Below, piece by piece: positions 2,070 to 10,725 of a stretch of 64,000 nt of DNA. The position numbers and the translations under genes are program-made. The stretch covers positions 1-64,000 of the forward strand of contig CAMATH010000005.1 in the NCBI GenBank assembly GCA_945860955.1. Reading direction: 5' to 3'. The notes beneath the pieces are model-generated. The model was not told where the DNA came from, did not search any database, and worked only from the letters and a program-made list of their open reading frames with translations. Origin of the DNA: Planctomicrobium piriforme. Its GTDB lineage: Bacteria > Planctomycetota > Planctomycetia > Planctomycetales > Planctomycetaceae. How positions within the stretch are numbered: the first letter of the stretch is position 1; each line of letters starts with the position of its first letter.

Positions 2070-2900
2070 CTAAGCCGCCCGCGCGAGCGGCGAACCCTGC
2101 GCGATTTCCTGCTCCATTTGCAAAACCTCACCCACGAGCCCCGCGTAATCCTCCGCTCCCGGACATTTCGGGGCGTAGTCAAAGATCGACTTGCCAAAGC
2201 TGGGGGCCTCGGCGAGTTTGATATTCCGCCGGATGCGGTTTTGGAAAATCCGTCCCTGCGACCAGGGTGCCTCGGGGTCGCTGGACGAAAGGAATGACTG
2301 CAAGTCGCCCGACACGTCGGCCGCCAGTCGAGTGTTCGTCTCATACATACAGAGGACGATCCCGCTGACCCGCAGCTCGCGGTTCAATCGACGGGTGACG
2401 AGGGCCGTTGTCTCCAGGAGTTTCGACAGTCCATGCAGCGCCAGGAAGTGTGGCTGCAATGGAATGAAGACCTCCCGGGCGGCGGAGAGCGCGTTGATCG
2501 TCAGAACGCCCAACGAAGGGGGGCAATCCATGATCACGTAGTCATACGGTTCGACGACCAGCAGTTGTTCGAGTGCCTGACGCAGAATCAACTCGCGTCC
2601 CTGCGTGTCGGCCAGCTCCACCTCGGCCGCCGCCAAATCAATGCTGGCGGGGGCCAGCCAGAGTTGTGGCCCCACCAGTCGGCGGATCTGCTGCATAGTC
2701 CGCTCGCCGGTGAACGTGTGGTAGATCGTGGGCGCGTTGCCCGGCAATTCGACCCCCAGATGCAGCGAGGCGTGAGCCTGCGGATCCAAGTCGAGCAGGC
2801 AGACCCGCTTCCCTTGCCGGGCCAGGCCGGCGGCCAGATTGACGCTGGTGGTGGTCTTCCCGACCCCACCCTTCTGATTCATGATCGCGATGCTGCGCAT
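2070..2900 (-). CDS. parA: ParA/Soj-family ATPase (orphan)
   Basis: A 276-residue ParA-type P-loop ATPase. The start is the ATG at 2900, preceded by AAAGGAG at ideal spacing; a longer frame upstream lacks such a site. The N-terminus [17 protein letters not shown] is the deviant Walker A box with the signature Lys10 and the P-loop Lys15. LLDLDPQAH is the Walker A' motif and [10 protein letters not shown]-type sequence is Walker B. Proteins of this family form ATP-dependent dimers on the nucleoid to segregate DNA or position cargo. No parB or parS-like sequence is visible nearby, so it may position something other than the chromosome or act with a distant ParB. It is divergent from the DUF1501 gene across 284 bases. 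Confidence 0.9.
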
Positions 2901-3184
2901 GGGAACTCCTTTTCCCCGAAACGCCCCCGGGAGTTCCATGCTCCCAGCGAACGTCGGTCGGGAGTATAGAGAGTGCCTTCGAATGCCAGAAGACAGATTT
3001 TTCGCGGGAATTTCCAGATATCGGCGATTGGAACGGCCCCACGGCAAAAATCTCCCCTCTTGCCGCTGGATCGCGTTCGACGATAGACTCACGTGCGTTG
3101 ATGCGAGTCGGTGTCGCGATCTCGTTCCGCGCGGCGCTCGGTCCACGACCTTCGCTTTGTCCTTCAGTCCCGTCCCGAACTGCG

Positions 3185-4594
3185 ATGGAATCCATGGCTT
3201 CAAACAGCACCGTTCATCGGCACACTGTCGGTTTGTCGCGCCGTGAGGCGTTGCAGGTGGGATATTCCGGGCTCCTGGGACTGGGGCTGCCGGCGTTGTT
3301 GGGGAAGTCGGCGAACGCCGGGGACGAACCTCAGGCGAAACCGAAGAGGCGCAACAAAAGCGTCATCCTGATTTTTCTCACCGGCGCTCCGAGCCATCTC
3401 GACATGTTCGACTTGAAGCCGGAAGCGCCCGCGGAGGTGCGGGGGATCTTCAACTCCATCGACACCAGCGCACCCGGGGTCCGGATTTGCGAACACCTGC
3501 CGATGCTGGCGGCGCGGGCCGAGCGATTCGCCGTGATCCGTTCGATGACCCATGATCTTCCCGGCCACGAGCAGGCGACGCATTTCGTCCTGACGGGAAT
3601 CGATCGATTGCCGTTGGGGGCCACCCACATGGCCTCGCGCAACGACTGGCCCTGCTACGCGTCGGCCCTCAATTTTCTGCGACCACGAAATGACGGCATT
3701 CCCAACGGGGTGTTGCTTCCCACCTACCTGCACAACGGGTACGGATTTTCGGGTCAGGACGCTGGCTTTCTCGGGGCGAAGTTCGACCCGTTGCATGTCA
3801 AACAGGATCCGAACGCGGACGGATTTCGAGTTGACAGCCTGAACCTGCCAGCGGGGTTGACGGTGACGAATCTCGACAACCGCCGACAGTTGCTGGCCGA
3901 GGTCGACTCTCAGCGGGCTGGCATCGACCGGGCCCGGAACCTGAACGAATTCGACAGCTACCAGCAGCAGGCTTTCACGATGCTGTCGTCGAGCGCGGTT
4001 GGCAAGGCGTTCGCCATCGATCAGGAAAAGGCGGAAGTTCGCAATTGTTACGGCCGACATCCCTTCGGGCAGTCGCTGCTTTTGGCCCGACGATTGGTTC
4101 AGGCGGGAGTCCCGATTGTCCAGGCGAACATGGGGACCATGAACAACTGGGATACGCACAACAGTAACTTCACCCAATTGAAAGATCGCCTGCTCCCTCC
4201 GCTGGATCGCGGAGTGTCGGCGTTGCTCGACGATCTGCAGGAGACGGGGCTGCTTGAAGACACGCTGTTGTTGATGGTGGGAGAGTTCGGCCGGACTCCC
4301 AAACTGGGAGGAAACGTCGGCACCCCGAGTTACGTTCCCGACGGGCGCGACCATTGGTCGGGGGCATTCTTCAGTTGGTTCGCCGGCGGTGGTGTGCAGG
4401 GGGGCCAGGTGATTGGCGCGTCCGACAACATCGCCGCCTACCCGGCGACCCGCCCGTACCGCCCTTCGGATCTGGGAGCGACGGTTTATCACGCGCTCGG
4501 AATCGATCCCGGGAGCGAGATCCGCGACCGTGTGAATCGCCCGATGCGGCTGAACGATGGCGAAGTGATCGAGCCGCTCTTCAGTGGGGCGTGA
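3185..4594 (+). CDS. DUF1501 domain-containing protein (Tat-exported)
   Basis: A protein of 469 residues from the ATG at 3185 (ATG at 3194 is the alternative). The N-terminus has a twin-arginine motif, [10 protein letters not shown], followed by a hydrophobic segment [12 protein letters not shown], as in Tat substrates. The body carries the DUF1501 hallmarks: [24 protein letters not shown] near the start, a central [13 protein letters not shown] segment, VGEFGRTP, and GRDHW. DUF1501 proteins resemble the alkaline-phosphatase/sulfatase fold and are hugely expanded in planctomycetes, usually beside DUF1549/DUF1553 genes. No such partner is visible here. The stop is 3 bases before a glycosyltransferase start, so the two genes are probably co-transcribed. 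Its substrate is unknown. Confidence 0.9.
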
Positions 4595-4597
4595 GCG

Positions 4598-5893
4598 ATG
4601 CACATCGCTCTGATCACGGCAGGGGGGGCGGGGATGTTCTGCGGATCGTGCATGCACGACAACACGCTGGCCCGCGCCTTAATGGCCAACGGACATCGGG
4701 TGACACTGATCCCGCTGTACACGCCGATTCGAGTCGACGAACTGGACGTCAGTGAACATCGTGTGTTTCTGGGGGGGGTCAACGTCTACCTCGCCGGCCT
4801 GTGGCCCTGGTGGTCGAAAGTGCCACGGTTCCTGCGTGCCTGGCTCGATCGACCAGCCGTTTTGCGTTTCGTCAGTCGGTTCGCTGTTTCGTCCGACGCG
4901 AAGGATCTGGGAGGACTGACGGTCGCGCTGCTGCGCGGTGACGACGGGCCGCACCGCGCTGAAATCGAAGAGTTCGTGAAGTTTATCGGGGACGAGTTGA
5001 GGCCCGACGTGGTGGTCCTGAGCAATGCGCTGTTGGGGGGCGTGGTTGCATCGCTGAAACGGAAGTTCTCAGGTCCGGTCTGGTGTCTGTTGCAGGGGGA
5101 CGACATCTTTCTCGGAGATCTGGTCGAACCCTATCGTTCGCAGGCGTTTGAACTGATGTACCAAATCGTTCGGGAAATTGATGGTTTCCTGGTGCATAGT
5201 GAGTACTACCGCCAATTCATGGCCGACTATCTGCGCTTTCCCGCAGACAAAGCCCAGGTCGTCCCCTTGGGATTCGATCTGGCGGGGCATGATGGTGTCG
5301 TCAAGACCGCGCGGGAGTCTGGCAAACCATTCACGGTGGGCTACTTTGCCCGGATCTGTCCGGAAAAAGGTCTCCACAACCTGGTTCAAGCGTTTCGAAT
5401 CCTGCATGCGAAGCATCCCCAGAGCCGGCTGGTCGCCGCGGGTTATTTGGGAGCCCGTGATCAGGCATGGTTCGACGATCTGAAACGCTCGGCCGAGGAT
5501 CTGGCGGGGGCGTTTCAATACCAGGGGAGTCCGCCCGATCACCACGGAAAAGTCGCATTCTTGAAATCCGTGGATGTGTTGTCGGTTCCTACGACCTATC
5601 GCGAGCCGAAGGGGTTGTACGTTCTAGAGGCGCTCGCGAATGGCGTTCCCGTAGTCCAGCCTCGCCATGGATCTTTTCCGGAACTGATCGAAGCGACCGG
5701 GGGGGGATTGTTGGTCGAGCCCGATGATCCTGTCGCGCTGGCCGCTGGACTGGAGCGGCTGTTGCTGGATGACGAACTGCGACACCGTCTGGCGGACACT
5801 GGCCGTCAACGGGTCAGGGAGCAATTTACGATGAGTCGGATGGCAGAAGAGACTGCTCGCGTTCTGGGTATTCGTCCAGGATCAATACCGTGA
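4598..5893 (+). CDS. Glycosyltransferase family 4 protein
   Basis: A 431-residue GT-B fold glycosyltransferase. The N-terminal domain begins MHIALITAGGAGMFCGSC, a glycine-rich acceptor-binding loop, and continues with HDNTLARAL. The C-terminal GT4 (glycosyl transferase group 1) domain starts near residue 245 with FTVGYFARICPEKGLHNLVQAF and contains the nucleotide-sugar binding block YREPKGLYVLEALANGVPVVQP with the family's E-x7-E arrangement. No signal peptide or membrane helix is visible, so it acts in the cytoplasm, presumably on a lipid- or protein-linked acceptor. It starts 3 bases after the DUF1501 stop. The sugar specificity cannot be read from sequence. Confidence 0.88.
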   Translation: MHIALITAGGAGMFCGSCMHDNTLARALMANGHRVTLIPLYTPIRVDELDVSEHRVFLGGVNVYLAGLWPWWSKVPRFLRAWLDRPAVLRFVSRFAVSSDAKDLGGLTVALLRGDDGPHRAEIEEFVKFIGDELRPDVVVLSNALLGGVVASLKRKFSGPVWCLLQGDDIFLGDLVEPYRSQAFELMYQIVREIDGFLVHSEYYRQFMADYLRFPADKAQVVPLGFDLAGHDGVVKTARESGKPFTVGYFARICPEKGLHNLVQAFRILHAKHPQSRLVAAGYLGARDQAWFDDLKRSAEDLAGAFQYQGSPPDHHGKVAFLKSVDVLSVPTTYREPKGLYVLEALANGVPVVQPRHGSFPELIEATGGGLLVEPDDPVALAAGLERLLLDDELRHRLADTGRQRVREQFTMSRMAEETARVLGIRPGSIP

Positions 5894-5919
5894 TTTAGCC
5901 CGGCGCGCGACATGTGGTG

Positions 5920-6185
5920 TAGAGGAACCCCCGGCCAGCGAACGGGCCGTGAAGCCGAACTGCCGAATGTGGTTGTGCAGCTCTGAGAGTGCGCACGACT
6001 GACGGTAAGAATTTGACAGGATGAAGAGGATGAAAGGGATGAAAGGGATGAACAGGATGGGGTTGCTCGCCACTCCAGCTCCCTGGAAAAGTGGCTGAAA
6101 TCGAAAAACTCGCAATCCACACGATTGACTGTCGCCTCAGCAATCCTTTCCATCCTTTTCATCCTGTCGAAAAATTCAACGGCCC
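5920..6185 (-). repeat. Dispersed repeat family 1, copy 1 (inverted relative to copies 2 and 3)
   Basis: The core spans 6015-6168 (154 bp). It starts with GACAGGATGAAGAGGATGAA and ends with ATCCTTTTCATCCTGTC, so the two arms are inverted repeats built from GGATGAA-like units. The interior contains CGATTGACTGTCGCCTCAGC, the reverse complement of the interior of the copies at 10896 and 14507. Its right flank ends TTCAACGGCCC (6175-6185). The left flank (from about 5920) matches the right flank of copy 3. It fills the space between the GT4 gene and the Trx7/PDZ gene, and no coding sequence is supported inside it. Confidence 0.85.
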
Positions 6186-6358: not shown

Positions 6359-7648
6359 ATGATGGCGACATCGATGAAGAACCGATTCGGACTGCTGGCG
6401 GCCGTGGCGTTGATGGCGGCGGTGGGGATGGAACAGGCACAGGCCGCTCCGGGCTGGATTGAGGGCATTGACGCGGGGGTGGCCCGGGCGAAAGTGTCGG
6501 GCAAGCCGCTGTTTGTGGTGTTCCGCTGCGTGCGGTGACCCGAATGCTGGATTTGGGATGGGCAGGTTGCTCATCAAGACCCCGATATCGCCGCTCTCCG
6601 TGCGCGCTTTGAGTGCGTCCGTGTGACGCAAATGAACGGCGTCGACCTGGCGCGATTTGACTTCGATTATGACAACACGTGGCAGGCGTTTTTTCTGGAC
6701 GCCGACCTGAACGTGTACGGTCGCTACGGTGGGCGGGAAGCTTCGGCCCCCGAAGCCCGCCTCTCAAAAGAGTCGCTGGTGCAGACGATGGGGGAGGTGT
6801 TGGCGGCGTTCGAACGCAGGAAGAAGAACCCCGCGGGTCCGACCGACGACCTGGAGGTACATCCCGCCCCCGCCCAATCCAAGAAGCCAGCGGATTTTCC
6901 GTTACTCAAGGCGAATCACTCGGGATGTGTGCATTGCCATCAGGTCCAGGAATTTCGGTTGTTGCAGTCCTTCGCCGACGGGGCTTTCGATAAGCAACTG
7001 CTGTTTCCATTTCCACTACCGGAAAACATCGGCCTGCGGTTTGACCGCGACCACGGCCATAGGGTGAAGGAAGTTCTGCCCGAATCCCCCGCGTCACGCG
7101 CCGGTGTGAAGGTGGGAGACATTGTCGCGCGGGCAGAAAATGTTCCCATCCGTTCGGAAGATGATTTTCGCTGGTCGTTGCATCGGTTGCGTGACCAGTC
7201 CGAAATCGCGATTCAGGTCACACGGGAGTCGGTGCAGGAACCGGTCGCCTTGAATCTCAGTCTGCCAGCCGGTTGGCGCAAGGGGGACATCAGTTGGCGA
7301 AAATCACTCCGCAGTTACCCAGTTGTGTGGGGATTTCTGGGGTATCCGGTCGGTCAGGAGGAGCGCAAGACCACCGACATTCCTGAACACGCCTTGGCGA
7401 TTAAAGTCGTCTCGCTGCGAGGACAATCGGGCGGGATCGCCCGGGCACTCGGGTTGCAGAAGGGGGATGTGATTGTCTCAATTGAAGACAATACGAGGGC
7501 CAGAACACTGGAACAGTTCAAATCGGAACTGCTGGGACGTTACGGCCCGGGCGACACGATGCGGCTCCGAATCCGTCGGGGTACGGAGACAATCGAGCTG
7601 ACGGGGGAATTCCCGGACTGGTTCACGAGCGATCGGACCGTTCCCTAA
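6359..7648 (+). CDS. Trx7/PDZ domain-containing selenoprotein (candidate Sec at in-frame TGA)
   Basis: One frame runs from ATG 6359 (or 6362) to the stop at 7648, interrupted only by TGA at 6536-6538, codon 60. Readthrough gives 429 residues. Residues 1-30 form a signal peptide ending in AQA-type sequence. A thioredoxin-like domain follows, with R56-C57-V-R-U60-P-E-C63; relatives I recall from planctomycetes have Cys at the position of U60 (RCVPC-x-x-C). Reading stays good after the TGA: IAALRARFECVRVTQ, then YGRYGGR. A CVHCH motif at 190-194 could bind c-type haem. PDZ-like regions lie at about 215-300 and 330-420. A SECIS-like hairpin starts 18 bases after the TGA. I recall an NCBI family name, Trx7/PDZ domain-containing (seleno)protein, that fits. 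It is probably a periplasmic redox protein of unknown substrate. The alternative is a nonsense mutation. Confidence 0.82.
6557..6575 (+). promoter_or_regulatory. Candidate bacterial SECIS element
   Basis: A 7-bp stem GATGGGC/GCTCATC (one G-U pair) closes a 5-base loop AGGTT. The loop G at 6565 lies 26 bases after the TGA at 6536-6538, inside the 16-37 base window usual for bacterial SECIS loops. The GC-AGGTT-GC apex closely resembles the GCAGGTCTGC apex of the E. coli fdhF SECIS, in which loop G and U contact SelB. It lies within the coding frame, as bacterial SECIS elements must. Confidence 0.65.
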
Positions 7649-7731: not shown

Positions 7732-8247
7732 ATGACTGCCCCCACTCCAAGCCCCGAAGAGCCTTTCGATCTGGTCAAACTGCGCGAACTGGTCGCGCTC
7801 ATGGAGCAGCACGGCTTGACCGAAGTCGACCTCCGCAGCGGCAGCGAACGGTGGAAACTCCGTCGCGGCCCGAAAGAGGTGACCCAGGTTGTCGGCGGAG
7901 GGGGCTTCTCTGGGAGCGGCTATTCGATGATGCCGTTCCCGGCGCCGTCAGCAGCACCTGCCATGGCAGGCCCTGCGGCGGCACCGGTCGCCCCTCCAGC
8001 GGCCGAATTGCCCGCGATTGTCAGCCCGACCGTGGGAACCTACTACGAGTCGGCGGCTCCCGGGGAACCGCCGTTCGTGAAGGTGGGTTCGCCCGTGACC
8101 ACCGATACCGTGGTCTGCATCATTGAGGCGATGAAGGTTTTCAATCAGATCACTGCGGATGTCAAAGGGACCATCGCTGAGGTTCTGGTCAAGAACGGCG
8201 ACCCGGTCGAATTCGGGCAGCCGTTGTTCCGCGTCCGATTGGGCTAG
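7732..8247 (+). CDS. accB: Acetyl-CoA carboxylase biotin carboxyl carrier protein
   Basis: A 171-residue BCCP subunit of acetyl-CoA carboxylase, which carries the carboxylated biotin in the first step of fatty-acid synthesis. The N-terminal region ([21 protein letters not shown]) is typical of bacterial AccB and precedes an Ala/Pro-rich linker (about residues 60-95). The biotinyl domain follows with [19 protein letters not shown]; the biotin-accepting residue is Lys135 in EAMK. The length fits the family. It begins an operon with accC 5 bases after its stop, and a promoter is predicted at 7652-7680. Confidence 0.96.
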
Positions 8248-8252
8248 ATGAC

Positions 8253-9608
8253 ATGTTTCAGCGCATCCTGATTGCAAACCGGGGGGAGATTGCGCTCCGC
8301 GTGATCCGCGCGTGCAAGGAGATGGGGATCGAAACGGTCGCCGTCTTCAGCGAGGCCGACCGCGGGGCTCATTACCTCGATCTCGCCGACGAGGCGTATT
8401 GCATCGGCGGCCGCCCGTCGAACGAGAGCTACCTGATGATCAACCGGATCATCAGCGCGGCGGAAATCGGCAACGTCCAGGCGATTCACCCGGGGTACGG
8501 TTTCCTCGCGGAAAACGCCCATTTCGCCGAGGTTTGCCGAAGCTGCAATATTGAATTCATCGGCCCGACCCACGAGGCGATGAACAAGCTGGGCGACAAG
8601 GTGTCGGCGAAGCAGATCGCCCGTGAAGCCAAGGTTCCGCTGGTTCCGGGCAGCGACGGCTTGATCACCTCGGAAGCCGAGGCACTCAAGATCGCCGAGC
8701 AGATCGGCTACCCGGTTTTGATCAAAGCGACAGCGGGTGGGGGTGGCAAAGGAATGCGGGTGGCGATGAACGGCATTTCGCTTCAGGCGGGCCTCAAAGG
8801 GGCGGCGGTCGAAGCGGAGAAGGCGTTCAAGAATGCGGGGGTCTACCTCGAAAAGTACATCGACCGACCGCGGCACGTGGAAGTTCAGATCATCGCAGAC
8901 AACCACGGGAATGTTCGGCACCTTTGGGAGCGGGACTGCACGTTGCAGCGACGGCACCAGAAGCTGGTCGAAGAGGCTCCCGGGCCGACCCTTCCTCCCG
9001 AAGTGCGAAAAGAACTGTGCGAGTCGGCGGTCCGACTGGTGAAGCACGCGGGCTACACGAATGCCGGCACGGTCGAGTTCATCGTCGATCAAAGCACGAA
9101 CAAGTTTTACTTCATTGAAGTCAATGCCCGGATTCAGGTCGAGCATCCGGTCAGCGAACTGGTTTCGGGCGTGGACCTGATCAAGAGTCAGATCCGGGTG
9201 GCTGCGGGCGAAACGTTGCCATTCACCCAGGAGCAGGTGCCCTGCAATGGTTGCGCGATGGAAGCGCGGATCAACGCCGAAGACCCGGCGAATGGCTTTC
9301 GCGGCTCGCCCGGAACGATCACGAAACTCCGTCTGCCGGGGGGACCTGGGGTCCGTTGGGACTCGCATGTGTATCAGGGCTACACGATTCCCCCGTATTA
9401 CGACTCGATGATCGGCAAACTGATTGTCCACAAGCCGACCCGGGCCGAGGCGATCGCCTGCATGCGACGGGCGCTCGATGAGTTTGTCATCGAAGGGGTG
9501 AAGACCACGATTCCGCTGTTGCGAGATTTGTTCGCCGACGCGGCGTTTCACTCCAGCCAGATCGACACCACGTACATCGAGCGGACCTGGACCCCCAGTC
9601 CCTCGTAA
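8253..9608 (+). CDS. accC: Biotin carboxylase subunit of acetyl-CoA carboxylase
   Basis: A 451-residue ATP-grasp enzyme that carboxylates the biotin on AccB using bicarbonate and ATP. The N-terminal preATP-grasp domain begins [20 protein letters not shown]. The glycine-rich ATP loop [14 protein letters not shown] lies around residue 160. The catalytic segments [14 protein letters not shown] and [10 protein letters not shown] are present, and the C-terminal biotin carboxylase domain contains [12 protein letters not shown]. The length matches E. coli AccC. It starts 5 bases downstream of accB and is presumably translationally linked to it. Confidence 0.97.
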
Positions 9609-9690
9609 TCGATTGAAAAATCGGCTCGCGGTCGGACCAGATCGCGCTCAACCAGATCCCGCGAACGATAGAGACAGAGAACAGCGACTC

Positions 9691-10725
9691 ATGAAGGTAG
9701 CCATGTTGACCGGCGGGGGAGACTGCCCCGCGTTGAACGCCGTGATTCGCGCCGTCGTGCGCACGATCCACAACCATGGCGGGGAGAGCTACGGCTTTCT
9801 TGAGGGTTGGCGTGGCGCGATCGAAGGGAACGCGATTCCGTTGAAAGCCCTGGAGACCGACGAGATCATCGCCAAGGGGGGAACGATTCTCGGTTCGTCG
9901 CGAACCAACCCCTACAAGAAGCAGGAGTCGATTGAGAAGCTGCGTCAGTCTTTCGCCCGGTTGGGGTTTGATGCGCTGGTGGCGATTGGCGGCGATGACA
10001 CGTTGGGCGTCGCGAAAAAGCTGTACGAAGATTTCAAGTTTCCCGTCGTCGGTGTGCCCAAGACGATCGACAACGACCTCGAATGCACCGACTTCACGTT
10101 CGGGTTCGATACGTCGATCAACATTGTGATGGAGGCGGTCGACCGGCTGCGGACGACGGCGGAGTCGCATCGCCGGGTGATAGTGGTTGAGACGATGGGA
10201 CGTCATGCCGGCTGGATCGCCTGCTTCGCTGGAATCGCCACCGCTGCCGACTATGTGCTGATTCCGGAAGAGGAAGTCAACGTCGACGAGATGTGCAATG
10301 TCCTCAAAAAGCGACGCGAGGCGGGCAAGAAATATGGTCTTGTGATCGCCAGCGAAGGGGCCAAGCTCCCTCAGGAAGGCTTAGTCACTGAGGACGCCGA
10401 GGTGGATGACTTCGGACACGTGCGACTCGGTGGACTCGGCAAAACGGTCGCGGACTTGATCGAACGTCGCACGGGAATTGAAACCCGTCATGTCATACTG
10501 GGTCACCTGCAGCGGGGTGGTCCTCCCAGCGCCTACGACCGTGTGCTGGGAACCCGGTTGGGCATTCACGCCGCCCGGCTGGTTCTCAACCGCGAATTCG
10601 GCATGATGGTCGCGCTCCGCGGTTTGAAGATCGCGCACGACACATTGGCCAACGCCGTGGGCAAGAGTCGGTTTCTCGACCTCGAATTCATGCGGGAAGC
10701 CGAAGAGTTCTACAAGAACGTCTAA
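9691..10725 (+). CDS. 6-phosphofructokinase, probably pyrophosphate-dependent
   Basis: A 344-residue PfkA-family enzyme phosphorylating fructose 6-phosphate. [20 protein letters not shown] is the phosphate-donor loop and KTIDNDL the catalytic block. Two positions point to PPi rather than ATP: the sequence GGDDT has Asp where ATP-dependent E. coli PfkA has Gly104 (GGDGS), and VPKTIDND has Lys where E. coli has Gly124 (PGTIDND). Asp plus Lys at these sites is the established signature of PPi-PFK, as in the actinobacterial Amycolatopsis-type enzyme, which this protein resembles. TAESHRRV and ETMGRHAGW are further family blocks. It follows accC after an 82-base gap and may be co-transcribed. ATP use cannot be excluded without assay. 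Confidence 0.93.

Follow-up and report, generated by a model that had tools for sequence, protein, structure and literature searches.

The gene at positions 6359-7648 of the window (the whole 64,000-nucleotide stretch from Planctomicrobium piriforme that was analysed) very probably encodes a selenoprotein of family NF041199, whose UGA at codon 60 would be decoded as selenocysteine (Sec). The locus illustrates clearly how a plain ORF call can strip what appears to be an exported redox protein of its signal peptide and active site. Its family constitutes a natural experiment in selenium use, since Cys, one-Sec and two-Sec forms alternate in one fold. Beyond the window copy, the points of main interest are the frequent two-Sec form and an invariant CxHCH motif.

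Organization of the gene

A single forward-strand frame spans 6359-7648 and is terminated by TAA; its sole in-frame TGA is codon 60, set in CVRUPEC with C57 and U60, in agreement with the first-pass annotation made from the sequence alone. The latter had also predicted that a standard annotator would start the gene at 6623 and drop both signal peptide and active site, and this is indeed what the mechanical ORF call did (GTG at 6623, 341 residues). For a signal peptide, translation would more probably begin at codon 6, an ATG at 6374 (MKNRFGLL...). The main features are as follows.

6359..7648, + strand: whole coding frame, 429 residues, predicted Sec at 60
6374..6445, + strand: signal-peptide-like N terminus (MKNR, hydrophobic core, AQA then AP; putative cleavage site)
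6455..6823, + strand: thioredoxin-like domain, residues 33-155 (Pfam PF13899 Thioredoxin_7 at 33-104; structural match of residues 30-155 to 3f9u_A)
6527..6529, + strand: C57 (TGC), first active-site position, read from the sequence; TGA here in 63 of 136 family copies
6536..6538, + strand: TGA, residue 60, predicted Sec from sequence, relatives and family comparison; site RCVRUPEC
6557..6575, + strand: putative bSECIS hairpin, stem of 7-8 bp, apical GGU, loop start 25 nt (7 bp) or 26 nt (8 bp) after the TGA
6623..7648, + strand: truncated gene of the plain ORF finder, GTG start, 341 aa
6926..6940, + strand: C190-V-H192-C193-H194 (CxHCH), possible c-heme or metal site, invariant in 136/136 family copies
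7028..7255, + strand: first PDZ domain, residues 224-299 (Pfam PDZ_2; HtrA/Deg matches)
7325..7621, + strand: second PDZ domain, about residues 323-421 (two Pfam PDZ_2 stretches; model strands and VIA-align rows over 317-425)

The AlphaFold2 model, computed with Cys in place of Sec, displayed a mean pLDDT of 89.4 and a pTM of 0.88, with a helix at residues 9-23 in the signal-peptide region. Its thioredoxin domain aligned with 3f9u_A over 116 residues (VIA-align, Z 13.8, rmsd 2.0, 14% identity). Structure 3f9u comes from a putative exported protein related to cytochrome c biogenesis and covers its C-terminal domain, which we take to resemble that of DsbD. In Pfam searches at E 0.1 only PDZ models and Thioredoxin_7 were recovered, and neither a trypsin-like protease domain nor any cytochrome family was found in the window protein. 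A hydrophobic stretch preceded W33 in 135 of the 136 family copies examined, versus 6/136 control windows. These observations support export of a protein whose thioredoxin fold bears an RCxxU redox site and which also carries the invariant CxHCH along with two HtrA-type PDZ domains.

Downstream of the gene, at window positions 7732-10722, lie genes that look like those for a biotin carrier protein, a biotin carboxylase and a phosphofructokinase, with no evident link to it.

Selenocysteine machinery and the meaning of UGA

The first-pass annotation held that absence of SelB or tRNA-Sec would speak against Sec; both were present in the genome (282 contigs totalling 8.4 Mb, completeness 98.9%), as were SelA and SelD. 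SelA scored 499 bits and SelD 280.9 bits. SelB scored 294.8 bits, with a separate same-frame match at profile positions 538-579, near the C-terminal end of the profile, and 643 codons separating the match start from the stop. The tRNA-Sec scored 75.1 bits and was called tRNA-SeC(tca) by ARAGORN, which assigned another match, barely above the tRNA-Sec cut-off, to tRNA-Ser. This machinery would decode the UGA of codon 60, guided by the hairpin at 6557-6575.

Readthrough of the UGA as an amino acid other than Sec, by near-cognate suppression or a changed code, would be expected to leave the sequence past the UGA looking alike. Yet UGA is still a stop here, as two adjoining Pfam-supported genes (3098-4594 and 4598-5893) terminate in TGA; besides the complete Sec machinery, Cys occupies the site in 40/40 family copies devoid of TGA and the hairpin goes with the TGA. 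Readthrough of this kind is thus very improbable.

The TGA and its surroundings were retained in two relatives from separate assemblies, L170 (Lake Pavin, 95% identical) and L169 (La Plata, 57%), and the hairpin at 6557-6575 was identical in all three. A sequencing error, named in the first-pass annotation as a possible refutation, is very unlikely given the same TGA in two other assemblies, and assembly error or pseudogene formation was rejected on the same ground. Another rival holds that translation truly ends at this TGA, or that the codon reflects a pseudogene lesion or an assembly error, and that the genuine gene runs from GTG 6623 without any active site. It would suit the mechanical ORF call, the scarcity of synonymous changes 5' of the TGA and a window hairpin within chance by itself, but deserves even less credence, for the TGA is shared with these two assemblies, occurs at the site in 96/136 family copies, is flanked by conserved residues on either side and, in the copies that carry it, is followed by a covarying hairpin.

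Between the window copy and L170, codons 61-200 displayed 19 synonymous and 5 other changes, versus 1 synonymous and 5 other changes in the 59 codons 5' of the TGA, located in the signal peptide and residues 35-38. For L169, codons 32-59 on the 5' side displayed 7 synonymous and 12 other changes, versus 24 and 19 in codons 61-150 on the 3' side. In these pairs, constraint appears clearer 3' than 5' of the TGA, where they give no evidence of purifying selection, and the case for the upstream part therefore rests on the family. There, the NF041199 match begins at residue 32, and W33, A44, P50, R56 and C57 (the last as Cys or TGA) are conserved, which bears out the earlier mention of coding-quality sequence upstream of the TGA. 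Farther downstream, the L170 sequence contains a stretch of unknown bases and shifts frame.

The genome contains another family copy (G000:C105:4064-5263, L023), stop-free, with a plain CLPC site and without a hairpin fitting the bSECIS rule. The family SECIS was represented by a covariance model built on 94 rows, that of the window included; searching this genome with it at E 10 gave 37 matches, the best being the window site with 29.3 bits. The second-best (24.4 bits) had no UGA at the expected place, and nine of the other 36 sites, inspected by eye, did not resemble a selenoprotein gene, so that this narrow search found no further selenoprotein in the genome. A search of the genome for formate dehydrogenase returned no match above the cut-off and no in-frame TGA.

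The hairpin downstream of the UGA

The bSECIS limits given in PMC13188914 are a stem of 4-16 bp, a loop of 3-9 nt with G in its first two positions, a distance of 16-37 nt after the UGA and an energy of at most -7.5. The window hairpin, in which the arms GATGGGC and GCTCATC enclose AGGTT, falls within them, with a loop starting 26 nt after the UGA, a 3-nt GGU loop, 8 bp and -8.8 kcal/mol. Its loop G lies at 6565, leaving 26 bases between TGA and G, exactly the spacing first described. The site ranked first among 69 read-through candidates. Hairpins of equal or greater stability under the same rule accompanied 3.8% of the 1808 TGA trinucleotides on both strands of the window, and 847 of 5000 synonymous-codon shuffles matched the energy of the window hairpin. 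By itself this hairpin is weak evidence, within chance, and the strength of the argument lies in the family comparison.

When the loop and spacing limits of this rule were applied, the best gapless hairpin of 90 of the 96 TGA copies had its loop start 25 or 26 nt downstream of the second TGA. Median energies were -10.5 for UxxU, -7.5 for CxxU and -1.95 for CxxC copies (U versus C, Mann-Whitney p 3.6e-14, a nominal value because the sequences are related). With a gapless stem, the -7.5 limit was reached by 47/63 UxxU, 17/33 CxxU and 3/40 CxxC copies. Covariation was examined over seven named pairs, using 94 distinct TGA copies: pairing was standard in 82.5% of cases, and double-change cells numbered 48, versus a mean of 9.1 in shuffled and 10-32 in slid versions. 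Sequence comparison therefore points to a hairpin that covaries in TGA copies at near-fixed spacing and is mostly absent from Cys copies. When ten CxxC loci were searched with the covariance model, two of them, L045 (17.7 bits) and L036 (12.1), gave weak matches at the site, versus 29.3 for the window.

The hairpin also seems to be reflected in the protein sequence: Gln69, encoded by the CAG at the hairpin apex, was found in 90/96 TGA copies versus 3/40 Cys copies. The first UGA of UxxU copies begins nine bases upstream of the second, so that a loop at 25-26 nt from the latter lies 34-35 nt after the former, inside the 16-37 limit. A single hairpin could serve both UGA codons of these copies. 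Taken together, machinery, TGA in relatives, a family site with either Cys or TGA and a covarying hairpin lend strong, if indirect, support to the original proposal that UGA is read as Sec.

Active-site states in family NF041199

With 379.9 bits (E 1.2e-113, profile positions 2-387 of 390), the window protein passed the curated whole-protein cut-off of 300 set for NCBIfam NF041199, "Trx7/PDZ domain-containing (seleno)protein". The first-pass annotation had correctly suggested an NCBI family with "(seleno)protein" in its name.

The profile was searched at E 1e-40 against 392 sampled genomes of the phylum and matched in 124 of them. The survey set comprised 136 copies from 107 Planctomycetota genomes, taken from among the matches listed. 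Also listed but outside the survey were three copies with two TGA (G117, G343 and G349, sharing a genus with included copies, SelA being present in all) and 11 stop-free copies (G121, G137:C3, G181, G205, G238, G266, G299, G327, G350, G365 and G381); among the genomes of these 11, SelA was found in G121 and G266 only.

The 136 copies were distributed among 40 CxxC, 33 CxxU and 63 UxxU (e.g. L032, L038, L060 and L073), and UxxC did not occur. The position of residue 60 was held by Cys in 40 copies and by TGA in 96, and by nothing else; homologues lacking both Cys and Sec, which the first-pass annotation had considered damaging, were therefore not encountered in this set. On a tree built by a quick method without the active-site columns, the three states required at least 22 changes and CxxC only 4, indicating that the first position switched between Cys and TGA many times. 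A single base change converts TGC or TGT into TGA. The window copy sat on a long branch, poorly placed and in no starred set, and no claim of origin by transfer is made for it.

Locus L123 displayed two adjacent copies, one CxxC (2833-4230, CPPC) and one UxxU (4670-6052); the Cys copy was nested in a UxxU clade and had lost the hairpin (-1.8). Locus L149 (G081:C148:7958-8860), with three TGA within a match covering profile positions 2-288 only, is possibly a damaged copy or one with a TGA outside the active site.

SelA was detected at E 1e-60 in 242 of the 392 genomes. Within the 107 surveyed genomes, it was present in 67 of the 73 with a TGA form versus 14 of the 34 with CxxC only (Fisher p 4.8e-8, a value that ignores kinship). 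Among the six TGA-form genomes without SelA, SelB exceeded its cut-off in five and ARAGORN called a tRNA-Sec in two; in G212, which has a TGA form and an assembly 77% complete, SelA, SelB and an ARAGORN tRNA-Sec were all not found.

The CxHCH motif and possible function

Our best guess is that this protein is exported and works as a (seleno)thiol-disulfide oxidoreductase, with docking through its two HtrA-type PDZ domains. The fuller proposal has roughly even chances: the C57-Sec60 pair would perform thiol/selenol-disulfide exchange outside the cytoplasm, the PDZ domains would grip the C-termini of partner or client proteins, and CxHCH would act either as a redox partner holding a single c-type heme or as a metal or dithiol relay for the thioredoxin site.

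Attachment of c-type heme requires export, and ordinary CXXCH heme motifs need no His between the cysteines. The family has what is sought in a c-type cytochrome at the sequence level, a CXXCH in an exported protein, with CxHCH in 136/136 copies and a hydrophobic N terminus in 135/136. Heme at CxHCH is thus possible; H192 within the motif is likewise invariant (136/136), which calls for caution on c-type heme and would also be compatible with a metal or dithiol site.

Alternatively, CxHCH would bind a metal (Zn/Cu) or serve as a dithiol site, in a chaperone or metal-handling factor devoid of any heme-linked redox relay; this reading is compatible with Sec and has a probability somewhat below one half. 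It draws on this invariant His between the cysteines, the lack of a Pfam cytochrome domain at E 0.1 and a magnetochrome pattern found in none of the 136 copies. Against it, CxHCH agrees with the CXXCH heme-attachment pattern, 135/136 copies look exported and PSCyt2/PSD1 genes adjoin one clade. The VIA-align list contained no cytochrome fold for the linker, which is evidence neither way. MamP and MamE, which are magnetochrome proteins, likewise combine PDZ with a CXXCH-type motif, but membership was rejected since the defining pattern, [P/T/H]HX5-9CX2CH (PMC3971196), was absent from all copies.

A rule-chosen set of 85 upstream and 71 downstream same-strand neighbours of the 136 copies was scanned against Pfam; part of these ORFs may be false, and the initial clustering included shadow ORFs. 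No widely recurrent neighbour family appeared in this set (at most 4/85 upstream; PSCyt2/PSD1 in 8/71 downstream), and gene neighbourhood was rejected as a functional guide for want of a family-wide operon partner. In clade f27, one BLAST cluster grouped ten downstream neighbours (L031, L033, L035, L037-L039, L043, L044, L050 and L052), two members of which were individually named PSCyt2/PSD1 by Pfam.

Returning to the oxidoreductase proposal, its most elaborate version is a rather unlikely one. It depicts a selenium-tuned extracytoplasmic electron relay, where the Sec-containing thioredoxin domain would exchange electrons with a heme covalently bound at CxHCH of the same chain while the PDZ domains dock clients, the site flickering between CxxC, CxxU and UxxU across Planctomycetota and one SECIS decoding two UGA whose first bases are nine apart. 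If true, single-base changes would adjust the selenium content of the relay.

Relation to known systems

The family is already in print as a CxxU selenoprotein, and the window gene therefore belongs to a family already predicted to hold selenoproteins; the novelty implied by the first-pass annotation did not stand. A 2026 review (PMC13188914) lists the family as a selenoprotein with motif CxxU and 1 Sec, and PMC9312934 has an entry 'PDZ domain-containing protein, Thioredoxin_7, CxxU'. Both cite a 2008 study of ocean metagenomes (PMC2398784). Among the new selenoproteins tabulated there is a 'putative secreted serine protease MucD', represented by 2 Sec and 12 Cys members and assigned the motif CxxU in the discussion; this entry is probably the NF041199 family. 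No report of the UxxU form or of CxHCH in family NF041199 was found in the literature searched (text of PMC13188914, PMC9312934, PMC2398784, PMC4807772, PMC3971196, PMC12013277 and PMC5029168).

The window copy shares domains and CxxU motif with NF041199, scores above its cut-off and displayed no difference from the family as tabulated in PMC13188914 and PMC9312934. Its relatives, by contrast, include many UxxU copies, whereas the family tables of these two sources give CxxU only.

The thioredoxin fold is common to the window protein and 3f9u, but the former adds Sec at the second active-site position, CxHCH and two PDZ domains. The PDZ domains match those of DegP/DegQ in sequence and fold; yet a thioredoxin domain stands in place of the trypsin domain of HtrA/Deg proteases and MucD, and the window protein was not retained among HtrA/MucD serine proteases since Pfam detected no trypsin domain at E 0.1. 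Finally, the two-Sec redox site predicted for 63/136 relatives of the window gene is also encountered in UxxU selenoproteins listed in PMC13188914 and PMC2398784 (e.g. Prx-like proteins and ferredoxin-thioredoxin reductase); these constitute different families, and the window copy itself has one predicted Sec.
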